From Methyloversatilis discipulorum (GTDB taxonomy: Bacteria > Pseudomonadota > Gammaproteobacteria > Burkholderiales > Rhodocyclaceae): DNA of 64,000 bases. Numbering within the stretch: the first letter of the stretch is position 1; every line of letters begins with the position of its first letter. The position numbers were made by a program, and so were the translations under genes. Where the stretch lies: positions 2,666,001 through 2,730,000 of the forward strand of contig NZ_AZUP01000001.1 in the NCBI RefSeq assembly GCF_000527135.1, written 5' to 3'. The notes under the pieces were generated by a model, which saw only the letters and a list, made by a program, of their open reading frames with translations, had not been told where the DNA came from and did no database searches. This document shows, piece by piece, positions 25,783 through 40,975 of the stretch.

Positions 25783-27699
25783 TCAGCCGGCCAGCGCGCG
25801 CTCGATGAAATGGCGCGGCACGCGGGTCTTCGGCACACGGCCGCCGAACCACGCGCGCACGTCCTCGTCCAGACCGATGCCGTGCATGTAGTTGTACAGC
25901 GCCTTGTTCAGCGCCGCGCCCATCGCGTCGTGGTCGGTGCCGACCGGGTCGATGAAGCCGACGTCGTTCTTCGCGAAAGTGACCGGCGGCAGAGGCAGCA
26001 GCGTCACGCCGTAGTCCTCCGGGTTCATGCCGACCGGTGAATGCACGGTACAGGCGAAGCGATGGAAGAAGCCGCTCTGGATGCAGCCGTGCTCGAACAG
26101 CTGACGCACGTATTCCAGTGCGTCGACCGTGTCCTGCACGGTCTGTGTCGGGAAGCCGTACATCAGATAGGCGTGCACCAGGATGCCGGCGTCGGCGAAG
26201 CCGCGCGTGACACGCGCCACCTGCTCGACCGACACGCCCTTCTTCATCAGCTGCAGCAGCCGGTCGCTGGCGACCTCCAGCCCGCCGGAAATGGCGATGC
26301 AGCCGCTGTCGGCCAGTTCCAGGCACAGCTCCGGCGTGAACGACTTTTCGAAGCGGATATTGCCCCACCACGAAATGCTCACGTCGCGCCGCTTCAGTTC
26401 GGCGGCGAAGGCGCGCAGCGATTTCGGCGGCGCCGCCTCGTCGACCAGATGGAAGCCGCTCTGCCCGGTCTCGGCGACGATGGCTTCGACGCGATCGACC
26501 AGCGTGGCCGCGCTCGCCGCGTCGTAGCGCGAAATGTAGTCCAGGCTCACGTCGCAGAAGCTGCACTTCTTCCAGTAACAGCCGTGCGCCACGGTGAGCT
26601 TGTTCCAGCGCCCGTCCGACCACAGCCGGTGCATCGGATTGAGCATGTCGAGCAGCGACAGGTAGCGGTCCAGCGGCAGGCCGGCCCAGGTCGGCGTGCC
26701 GACCTCGTCGAACGGAATGTCCGGCTCGACGAAGTTCACGTACTTCACCACACCGTCCTCACGCAGGAAGGTGCGCACCAGTCGCTGTCGGGAACGGCCG
26801 CCGGCGAGGAGGTCGAGCAGCGCCAGCAGTGGCCGCTCGCCGGCGTCCAGCGTGACGTAATCGAAGAAGTCGAACACGCGCGGCTCGGCCAGCTCGCGCA
26901 GTTCGGTGTTCACGAAACCGCCGCCCAGCACGGTGACGATGGACGGATCGACCGCCCGTATCGTCTGCGCGATGCGGAAGGCCGCATACACCGCGCCAGG
27001 GAAAGGCACCGACAGCAGCACCACGCGCGGCGTGTGGCGCGCCAGCGCTTCGTGCGTCAGCCGGTCGAGCGCGCGATCGACCAGCGTGGGCGGAGCGGCC
27101 AGCGCCTGCGCCAGCGGGTCGAAGCTGGGCTGGCTCTGCGCCAGCGATTCGGCGTAGCGGACGAATTCGAAGCGCGGGTCGACGGCTTCGCGTATCGCAT
27201 CGGCGACGTCGTTCAGGTAGAGCGTCGCGAAATGGCGCGCACGGTCTTGCACGCCCAGTGCGCCGAAGGCCCAGGCCAGCGGATCGCCGCCGTCCGGGTC
27301 GATGTAGGCCTCCAGCGATTCGAAGCGCGGCCCTTCGGGCAGAAAGCCGCGCGACACGATGCGGTGCGCCAGCGTCGGATCGCGCCCCTGCAGGAAAGCG
27401 AGCACCGGCGCCATGGTCGCCGCGTAGCGCGCATGCTGCGCCGCGAAACTGGCGGCGGCGCGCGGGCGCTTCTTCTGCGGCAGCGCGTCGCAGGCCTCGC
27501 GCAGCGCCACCAGACCCTCGCGCGACAGCAGGTCCAGCACCAGCGTCAGCGCCAGATCCTCCTGCACCGCATCGACGCCGCGCGAGCGCAGGAAACCGGT
27601 CAGATAGGCGGTGGACGGATAGGGCGTGTTCAGCTGCGTCATCGGCGGAATGACGGACAGCACACGGGGCGACGGGGTCGAGGAAGCGGGCGCGCTCAT
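25783..27699 (-). CDS. B12-binding-type radical SAM protein
   Basis: The 638-residue enzyme has an N-terminal cobalamin-binding-like Rossmann region (about residues 190-320; VTVLGGGFVNTE) and a radical SAM barrel. The 4Fe-4S ligands are Cys374, Cys379 and Cys382, spaced CX4CX2C instead of the usual CX3CX2C; the flanking GCYWKKCSFCD segment is otherwise typical. Such enzymes methylate or rearrange unactivated carbons. It lies divergent from the NRPS cluster with a 201-bp shared gap that includes an AT-rich stretch (27808-27822). It is a candidate tailoring enzyme, but may be unrelated. Confidence 0.8.
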   Translation of the reverse strand: MSAPASSTPSPRVLSVIPPMTQLNTPYPSTAYLTGFLRSRGVDAVQEDLALTLVLDLLSREGLVALREACDALPQKKRPRAAASFAAQHARYAATMAPVLAFLQGRDPTLAHRIVSRGFLPEGPRFESLEAYIDPDGGDPLAWAFGALGVQDRARHFATLYLNDVADAIREAVDPRFEFVRYAESLAQSQPSFDPLAQALAAPPTLVDRALDRLTHEALARHTPRVVLLSVPFPGAVYAAFRIAQTIRAVDPSIVTVLGGGFVNTELRELAEPRVFDFFDYVTLDAGERPLLALLDLLAGGRSRQRLVRTFLREDGVVKYVNFVEPDIPFDEVGTPTWAGLPLDRYLSLLDMLNPMHRLWSDGRWNKLTVAHGCYWKKCSFCDVSLDYISRYDAASAATLVDRVEAIVAETGQSGFHLVDEAAPPKSLRAFAAELKRRDVSISWWGNIRFEKSFTPELCLELADSGCIAISGGLEVASDRLLQLMKKGVSVEQVARVTRGFADAGILVHAYLMYGFPTQTVQDTVDALEYVRQLFEHGCIQSGFFHRFACTVHSPVGMNPEDYGVTLLPLPPVTFAKNDVGFIDPVGTDHDAMGAALNKALYNYMHGIGLDEDVRAWFGGRVPKTRVPRHFIERALAG

Positions 27700-27900
27700 G
27701 GTGGATACGGCGGTGCGACAAGCCGCGCAGCGTACCCGAAGGCGCGCCGATCCGCGCAATACCTCACGACTGACCGCTCGCGGCATCGGTGACCACGCCG
27801 GGTTCCCAAATATTTACTCGGCAATTCGCTGCACACCCCTACCATCACGGCGATACGAGCGCGAAGGTCCGTCGACGCCGTACCGAGGAGAGAGGCCACG

Positions 27901-40278: not shown

Positions 40279-40975
40279 GAGCGCACCCGCACTGGCGGCC
40301 GGAGAAGTCCACCTGTGGCTGGCGCGGGTAGACGACGCACCGCCGACCGACACCCTCGCCAGCTGGCTGGACGAGAGCGAGCGCGCCCGCCTCGTCCGCC
40401 TGCAGCGCGCGGAGGATCGCGCACTGTTCGCACTCGCACACGCAGCGCTGCGCGACGTGCTGGCACGCAGCCTGGGCATCGCCGCGCGCAGCGTGCAGAT
40501 CGACCACGACGCGCACGGCAAGCCACGACTCGCGCCCGGCCACGCCTGCGACCTGCGCTTCAATCTCGCGCACGCCGGCCGGGCGGTGCTGATCGGCATC
40601 GCCCGTGACCGCGAACTCGGCGTCGACATCGAAGCCGTGATCGCGCACGACGACCTGCGCGCGGTGGCGGAGCAGGTCTACTCGGCCGACGAAAGGGCGG
40701 CACTCGACGCCTGTCCGACAGCCGCACGCACCGATCTTTTCTACACGCTGTGGACGCGCAAGGAAGCCTGCCTGAAAGCCTGGGGCTGCGGCCTCGACGG
40801 CCCGCTGCAGCAGTTCAGCGTGCACATGGCCGCACACGACGACGTCGCCGCTCCGGCCGGCACTTCCTTACCTTCGCTGCACTGCCGCGACCTGCCGGCA
40901 CCGCCGGGCCACGTCGCAGCAATCGCCGTCAGCGGCGGGCCGACAACGGCGGTGTGCAGGCGTTGGCACGTGTAG
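40253..40975 (+). CDS. Sfp-type 4'-phosphopantetheinyl transferase
   Basis: The 240-residue enzyme moves phosphopantetheine from CoA to carrier-domain serines. The Sfp motifs are present: HGKP, FNLAH, GVDIE (Asp125, Glu127) and WTRKEACLKAWG (Lys170, Glu171, Lys175). It overlaps the NRPS end by 26 bases, so the cluster has its own activator for the four carrier domains nearby. A second ATG at 40262 is also possible. Confidence 0.93.
   Translation: MNSMPPATESAPALAAGEVHLWLARVDDAPPTDTLASWLDESERARLVRLQRAEDRALFALAHAALRDVLARSLGIAARSVQIDHDAHGKPRLAPGHACDLRFNLAHAGRAVLIGIARDRELGVDIEAVIAHDDLRAVAEQVYSADERAALDACPTAARTDLFYTLWTRKEACLKAWGCGLDGPLQQFSVHMAAHDDVAAPAGTSLPSLHCRDLPAPPGHVAAIAVSGGPTTAVCRRWHV

Follow-up and report, generated by a model that had tools for sequence, protein, structure and literature searches.

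Which starter does a nonribosomal peptide synthetase (NRPS) receive when it opens with a condensation (C) domain and is preceded by an acid ligase with its own carrier domain and by a thiamine diphosphate (ThDP) enzyme? This question is raised by a stretch of 64,000 nucleotides of Methyloversatilis discipulorum (contig NZ_AZUP01000001.1, positions 2,666,001 to 2,730,000; the whole stretch is called the window), whose genome is 4.3 Mb in one contig. Four genes on the + strand at 27901-40975 encode the ligase-carrier, the ThDP enzyme, the NRPS and a phosphopantetheinyl transferase (PPTase), all with Pfam matches above the cut-offs. The gene cluster is real, and all genes named in the original prediction were found. 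Our reading, to which we give a probability of about 0.55, is that oxalate would be loaded on the carrier of the ligase and decarboxylated there by the ThDP enzyme, the resulting one-carbon unit being either released as a formyl group or joined to a carbonyl compound, both fates taken together.

The ligase-carrier (612 aa; 27901..29739, +) matched Pfam AMP-binding, AMP-binding_C and PP-binding. According to the Pfam boundaries, the ligase domain lies at 27961..29364 (+) and the carrier (T) domain, with the motif LGGDS, at 29446..29634 (+), and comparison of the tails showed a C-terminal tail behind it. The protein had been described as an AAE3-like ligase fused to a carrier, and its three best solved relatives are indeed oxalate-CoA ligases, namely the plant AAE3 5ie0 (E 4.6e-119), 6qjz (9.6e-117) and the yeast enzyme 8aff (7.8e-99). 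Next came the adenylation (A) domains of gramicidin synthase, fatty-acyl and malonyl-CoA synthetases (malonyl 5.6e-60). In addition, residues H207, S278 and H308 of the window ligase aligned with H214, S289 and H319 of AtAAE3, which we take to be the oxalate-binding residues. Among the 17 ligases fused to a T domain (ligase-T) that were compared, FHxHG and RSxSxxL were kept in all, and the His of MTExxH in 16, the exception being the first copy in L031. Among the free-standing ligases, three solo rows read on the wrong strand were dropped, as was G001_solo, a misread row that stood on a long branch of the tree. Oxalate is the best-supported acid for ligase-T, because the ligase is nearest to oxalate-CoA ligases and a candidate oxalate-supplying lyase is found in some relatives. 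Of the 13 genomes of the genus, 12 contain an AAE3-like paralogue (52-55% identical) that stands free of a carrier; it was not found in G007. In the cluster of Cyanobium (L072 / L031) a single ThDP gene and a lyase are accompanied by two ligase-T genes; one of these two ligases is without the AAE3-motif His, and the C domain of L031 has HY instead of HH.

The lyase belongs to the PEP-mutase/ICL family (phosphoenolpyruvate mutase/isocitrate lyase) and was detected at five of the 11 loci outside the genus, either in the cassette or beside its NRPS (L024, L025, L032 and L052) or, in G434, 10 kb from the ThDP gene and beside an NRPS. It has the KCGH/RCGH motif, and its solved relatives include the petal death protein (7.4e-34), the best match, which presumably cleaves oxaloacetate, and an oxaloacetate acetylhydrolase (4e-21). 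Such a lyase could supply the oxalate.

The ThDP enzyme (563 aa; 29723..31414, +) matched all three TPP Pfam domains. It had been likened to the oxalyl-CoA decarboxylase (OXC) fold; the fold was right, but the top matches of both sequence and model are 2-hydroxyacyl-CoA lyases and synthases (HACL/HACS) of the same family. Its AlphaFold2 model (pLDDT 84.2, pTM 0.83) gave HACL/HACS as top Foldseek matches, with TMq values of 0.81-0.85 and 26-31% identity. The protein scored below the NCBIfam equivalog cut-offs for oxalyl-CoA decarboxylase (270.3 against 557 and 238.3 against 739.4 bits) and below that for 2-hydroxyacyl-CoA lyase, NF058623 (208.7 against 600 bits), and its closest named relatives are proteins of Methyloversatilis. 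The letters GD...NN, which bind ThDP, are conserved. The alignments put Q84, whose codon is at 29972..29974 (+), where the catalytic Glu (standard position 51) would stand. In AcHACL this Glu is E65 (PMC8760513), and in a survey of the superfamily Glu was found there in 94%, and Val, which marks the glyoxylate carboligases, in 3% (PMC3534367). Gln replaced Glu in 26 of 26 rows of a first alignment and in 20 of 20 rows of a second one, the two sets overlapping. In the ThDP tree, Gln was found in the 22 rows of a single clade with support 100/100, and the other 19 rows comprised 17 with Glu and two not covering the site; L034, which is without the position-84 site, was left out of this typing. 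By its distribution on the tree, the switch from Glu to Gln looks like a single change.

A scan of 84,980 named genomes yielded 14 loci: two that repeat G003 and G009 (L021 and L022, which were dropped), nine new loci of the Gln type, two of the Glu type and L034. The 16 Gln-type loci considered were the window, G003, G009, G010, G012, L023, L024, L025, L026, L028, L030, L031, L032, L033, L052 and L053. In all of them, distributed over four phyla, a ligase-T gene stands beside the ThDP gene; L033 shows the carrier end only, L026 has it in two frames and L053 has a short tail. For comparison, ligase-T was found in none of the 11 Glu-type loci (L027, L029, L065-L070 and L073-L075) within the stretches examined, some of which end early; in L029 there is a carrier-less ligase on the opposite strand. 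Fourteen of the 16 Gln-type loci showed a C domain, and the stretch of G009 ends just past the start of the NRPS. Because in L024, L025 and L033 the gene right behind that of the ThDP enzyme encodes a lone C-domain protein, the cassette may work without an adjoining full NRPS. Across these loci ligase-T is strongly linked with the ThDP enzyme and the C domain, and by its 16 loci in four phyla the pair of ligase-T and ThDP gene is a portable cassette, which would start the chain. The Gln type is rare: it was found in 2 of the 369 genomes of a class draw (those of the window and of L024) and, with the centre genome counted, in 1 of 386 genomes of the phylum of L023, 2 of 295 of that of L032 and 2 of 288 of that of L033. 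A plasmid search with the ThDP enzyme gave no match at 1e-60.

Some of these loci showed particular features. In L025 (5353-14958) a four-gene cassette lies inside the trp operon, with trpE before it and trpG and trpD after it; a link to this operon was considered and taken as incidental, as different genes precede the sister cassette in L024, whose contig ends after the C gene of the cassette. In L026 (8128-9968) the ligase is spread over two frames and the ThDP match contains a stop codon, which indicates either broken genes or sequencing errors. In L028 a pirin gene and a gene for a DAO-type FAD oxidoreductase lie close to the ligase-T and ThDP genes.

A stretch like IASRLSGLSPQQRQLLTQRLQK opens many of the ThDP proteins and is likewise present at the start of many NRPS and lone C proteins in these clusters. 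A helix profile was built from 11 N-termini of C-domain proteins, and the window ThDP enzyme matched it at 29762..29827 (+) with the motif VLGRLAALAPAHRDAVRDALRA (score 18.8, 0 of 2000 shuffles as high). With a limit of at most 14 in 2000 shuffles scoring as high, which was set after the scores were seen, 15 of the 20 testable Gln-type rows were positive and none of the eight testable Glu-type rows; these rows do not include L032 and L067, whose sequences were too short, nor L026, G003, G009 and G010. The ligase-T tails of L023, L024, L025, L028, L030, L033 and L052 end, as judged by eye, in approximately ELxxLSxEExxxLL, and the tail in the genus differs from this type. In L031 and L032 the ligase-T tails are short and there is no such helix on their ThDP and C proteins; in L026 the ligase-T tail was not found. 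These likenesses suggest that the ThDP enzyme and C1 may dock on the same ligase-T tail.

The NRPS (2944 aa; 31444..40278, +) was resolved by domain search as C-A-T-A-T-C-A-T-TE, all on the + strand. As had been proposed, it opens with a C domain, C1 (31594..32853), which carries HHIVSDG and should take the starter from ligase-T. It is followed by A1 (32914..34368; letters DAWQFGLIDK, Gln), T1 (34399..34623), A2 (34654..36135; DVGDFGMIDK, perhaps for a basic residue), T2 (36172..36396), C2 (36445..37704; HHIISDG), A3 (37792..39258; DAFWLGGTFK, Val), T3 (39289..39516) and the thioesterase (TE) found with Pfam (39559..40263). The Gln- and Val-like units of the original prediction fit these letters, read at the GrsA positions; the third A domain (DVGDFGMIDK), in a module without a C domain, had not been mentioned there. 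Since this second module is without a C domain, the order of residues in the window peptide is unsure. The A-T module without C spans 34654-36396, and the counterpart line in G004 has one C per A. In the whole window genome Pfam Condensation gave two matches, both within this NRPS. The specificity letters of the window, G003 and G010 read Gln, DVGDFGMIDK and Val; those of G004 and G007 read DVGDFG type, Gln and Val, and those of G012 DVGDFG type and Val, so that the Gln and DVGDFG-type A domains swap order between relatives. C1 and C2 are near copies in G007 and G012. The NRPSs of other phyla have differing letters, save for a Val-type A1 in L023, and therefore the cassette would start different peptides. 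The cluster's own PPTase, also foreseen, lies at 40253..40975 (+) with a Pfam ACPS match; by tblastn it was matched in five of the six cluster stretches of the genus besides the window (L020 stops short of it) and had no match in the cassette stretches outside the genus.

Two relatives in the genus, G004 and G007, keep open reading frames for ligase-T and the NRPS and are without the ThDP gene. Each gave one match to the ThDP profile, only at the level of the acetolactate synthase of the window genome (that protein was identified by eye). In G007 there is an apparent deletion scar, the end of the gene matching in DNA (26-28 bp, E 1.6e-5 to 4e-3) and its start in translation only. As G004 and G007 fall into separate starred clades in the tree of ligase-T, two losses of the ThDP gene are the simplest account. 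By this gene content the ThDP step is dispensable in at least two relatives.

Taking these data together, we infer the following route. By homology, the ligase would adenylate oxalate and load it as an oxalyl thioester on its own carrier domain. The ThDP enzyme would then dock on the ligase-carrier in the fashion of a C domain and decarboxylate the oxalyl group while it is carrier-bound, so that ThDP would hold a one-carbon acyl-anion unit. The simplest fate of this anion would be protonation to give formyl-S-carrier; about as likely, it would be joined to a carbonyl compound, forming a 2-hydroxyacyl-S-carrier. Afterwards, C1 would pass the starter to the first aminoacyl-carrier, in the window probably that of Gln, and the line would go on to Val plus one residue, possibly basic, until the TE frees a short capped peptide; the PPTase would activate the carriers. 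The earlier proposal, in which the ThDP enzyme modifies a carrier-bound acid that then caps a short peptide, is partly supported: the linkage in all 16 loci and the N-terminal helix on most of these ThDP enzymes speak for it, while the ThDP step, being dispensable in two relatives, does not appear to be needed everywhere.

The two fates of the anion were weighed separately. Release as formyl-S-carrier would lead to N-formyl peptides or small molecules; a member of its family, oxalyl-CoA decarboxylase, carries out this reaction on CoA (PMC8411744), and the lone C protein that follows the ThDP gene in three loci would suffice for it. Several observations weigh against this fate. In MeOXC, residues Y134, E135, Y497 and S568 hold and protonate the oxalyl adduct (PMC8411744, PMC8760513). 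In the 20 Gln-type rows, the Y134 site is F in all; the E135 site is Q in 14, M in five and T in one, the window having T; the Y497 site, placed by eye, is without Tyr; and no C-terminal tail matching the S568 region was seen by eye. The catalytic Glu and the relay residues being lost, plain OXC chemistry and formyl release are therefore disfavoured, and the cofactor should be activated more slowly with Gln than with Glu. Moreover, in the NRPS of L023 (5480-13186) a formyltransferase domain separates the second C domain from the second A domain. We consider the formyl fate tentative. The same losses favour decarboxylative carboligation, in which the ThDP enzyme would add the one-carbon anion to an aldehyde or a 2-oxo acid and give a 2-hydroxyacyl starter: the nearest folds and sequences are 2-hydroxyacyl-CoA lyases and synthases, replacement of OXC relay residues in the engineered MeOXC4 gave an enzyme that converts oxalyl-CoA directly into glycolyl-CoA in the presence of formaldehyde (PMC8411744), and the glyoxylate carboligase family is also without the Glu at position 51, having Val (PMC3534367). 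Gln is held in all 22 rows of a diverse clade, which may reflect selection against Glu. However, no gene supplying a carbonyl compound was seen in common, the minimal cassette of L025 consisting of ligase-T, lyase, ThDP enzyme and C, and the replacements of the window type differ from those in MeOXC4. On balance carboligation is a possible fate, held no more firmly than the formyl one.

Other readings depart from carrier-bound decarboxylation of oxalate itself. The acid could be another small one, such as malonate or a 2-oxo acid, with a different ThDP reaction. The specificity of the ligase is inferred, models of FadD7 and malonyl-CoA synthase match the ligase too, and the superfamily of the lyase covers several C-C cleavage reactions. 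Nevertheless, among solved structures the oxalate ligases (4.6e-119 to 7.8e-99) stand far above the malonyl-CoA synthetase (5.6e-60), and we regard this option as possible. Also, the oxalyl group itself could be the cap and the ThDP enzyme a side activity or an editing one, as G004 and G007, the latter with its apparent scar, would suggest by holding ligase-T and NRPS without the ThDP gene; but their loss may be the onset of decay, all 16 Gln-type loci pair ligase-T with the ThDP gene, and the ThDP enzyme retains the GD...NN cofactor motif and often the docking-type helix, so this is the least probable of the readings considered and in our opinion unlikely. Decarboxylation of oxalate on the carrier is preferred, and it has in turn to accommodate several adverse data. 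The solved relatives of the lyase also include a carboxyphosphonate phosphorylmutase entry (8e-34), its top NCBIfam model is methylisocitrate lyase (154.5 bits against a cut-off of 354.4), and no such lyase was found at E 1e-20 in the three genus genomes searched (G000, G012 and G004). Five of the 20 Gln-type rows (L031, P0026, P0027, P0029 and P0031) failed the helix test, and L053 combines a clear ThDP helix with a cut-short ligase tail, perhaps due to a frameshift. The loci outside the genus were found through the ThDP enzyme, and ligase-T without ThDP was not looked for there; in L028 no C domain was in view. Finally, a clade of starter C domains was sought and not found, there being seven label changes on a tree of 29 C domains.

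Concerning the borders of the cluster, its start had been placed at 25783, which is one gene too early, since it takes in a gene of the flank. This gene (25783..27663, -) encodes a B12-binding radical-SAM protein and forms the conserved left flank by tblastn in the genus. The ligase-T gene was found in seven of the 13 genus genomes (G000, G003, G004, G007, G009, G010 and G012) and the radical-SAM gene in all 13, six of which are without the cluster. Its membership of the cluster, for instance for a PhpK-like methylation, was rejected on this distribution. In five of the six cluster-less genomes the tblastn matches of radical-SAM and pqiC are 143-694 bp apart (empty site), and in the other, G001, 4.65 kb lie between them. 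Because the flanks lie close together in five of the cluster-less genomes, the four genes are seen as an insertion between two conserved flanks. The radical-SAM protein is weakly like C-methyltransferases of ribosomally synthesized and post-translationally modified peptides and PhpK, far below the cut-offs, and G002 and G011 each have a second radical-SAM match. In the window, an AbiV-family abortive-infection gene (24971-25669, -) adjoins ruvB; G003 and G001 also have the AbiV gene beside that of the radical-SAM protein, and it gave no match in L020, L043-L046 and L071.

It had been stated that no described system with exactly this set was known, and none was found in the literature searched, most subscription journals, MIBiG and antiSMASH not being covered. 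The route of AAE3 or the yeast oxalate-CoA ligase with OXC uses the same ligase and ThDP families and presumably the same oxalate chemistry, but the window ligase has its own carrier and precedes an NRPS, and the window ThDP enzyme lacks both the relay residues of OXC and the catalytic Glu. HACL/HACS enzymes (8vza, 6xn8) are closest to it by sequence and model, and HACLs have Gln at the E135 site (PMC8760513), as do most of the Gln-type rows and unlike the Thr of the window; the Gln-type enzymes differ from them in having Gln for the catalytic Glu, an NRPS-type helix and presumably a carrier handle instead of CoA. BbmA (8x3x, PDB title "ThDP-dependent HKA synthase") and CsmA (8x3z) are sequence-related ThDP enzymes, BbmA being also fold-related to the window enzyme (~24% identity), and nothing relevant on them was found in the literature searched. 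Glyoxylate carboligase acts on free glyoxylate and is distant in sequence from the window enzyme (E 3e-25 to 3e-24). It likewise lacks the Glu at position 51, but has Val where the window has Gln (PMC3534367). If the formyl fate is right, the product would be an N-formyl peptide as with linear gramicidin synthase, whose F domain is a formylating NRPS starter, but the window NRPS is without a formyltransferase domain by Pfam. A literature search for oxalyl-bearing acyl carrier proteins or for OXC with an NRPS carrier found none, the one match for oxalyl and thiamine concerning other enzymes.

In its most specific form, which we put forward only as a possibility, a Glu-less ThDP enzyme would dock like a C domain, decarboxylate carrier-bound oxalate and join the anion to a carbonyl compound, giving a new start for nonribosomal peptides and a portable station for one-carbon extension common to several phyla. 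If the proposed route is true, oxalate would join the starters of NRPSs, and a ThDP enzyme would have been recruited into an assembly line through the gain of an NRPS-type N-terminal helix. Since G004 and G007 have no ThDP gene, their peptide caps could be compared, as in a natural experiment, with those of relatives that possess it. Finally, the diverse Glu-less clade beside its Glu-bearing sister enzymes would constitute a natural test of the conserved glutamate of ThDP enzymes.

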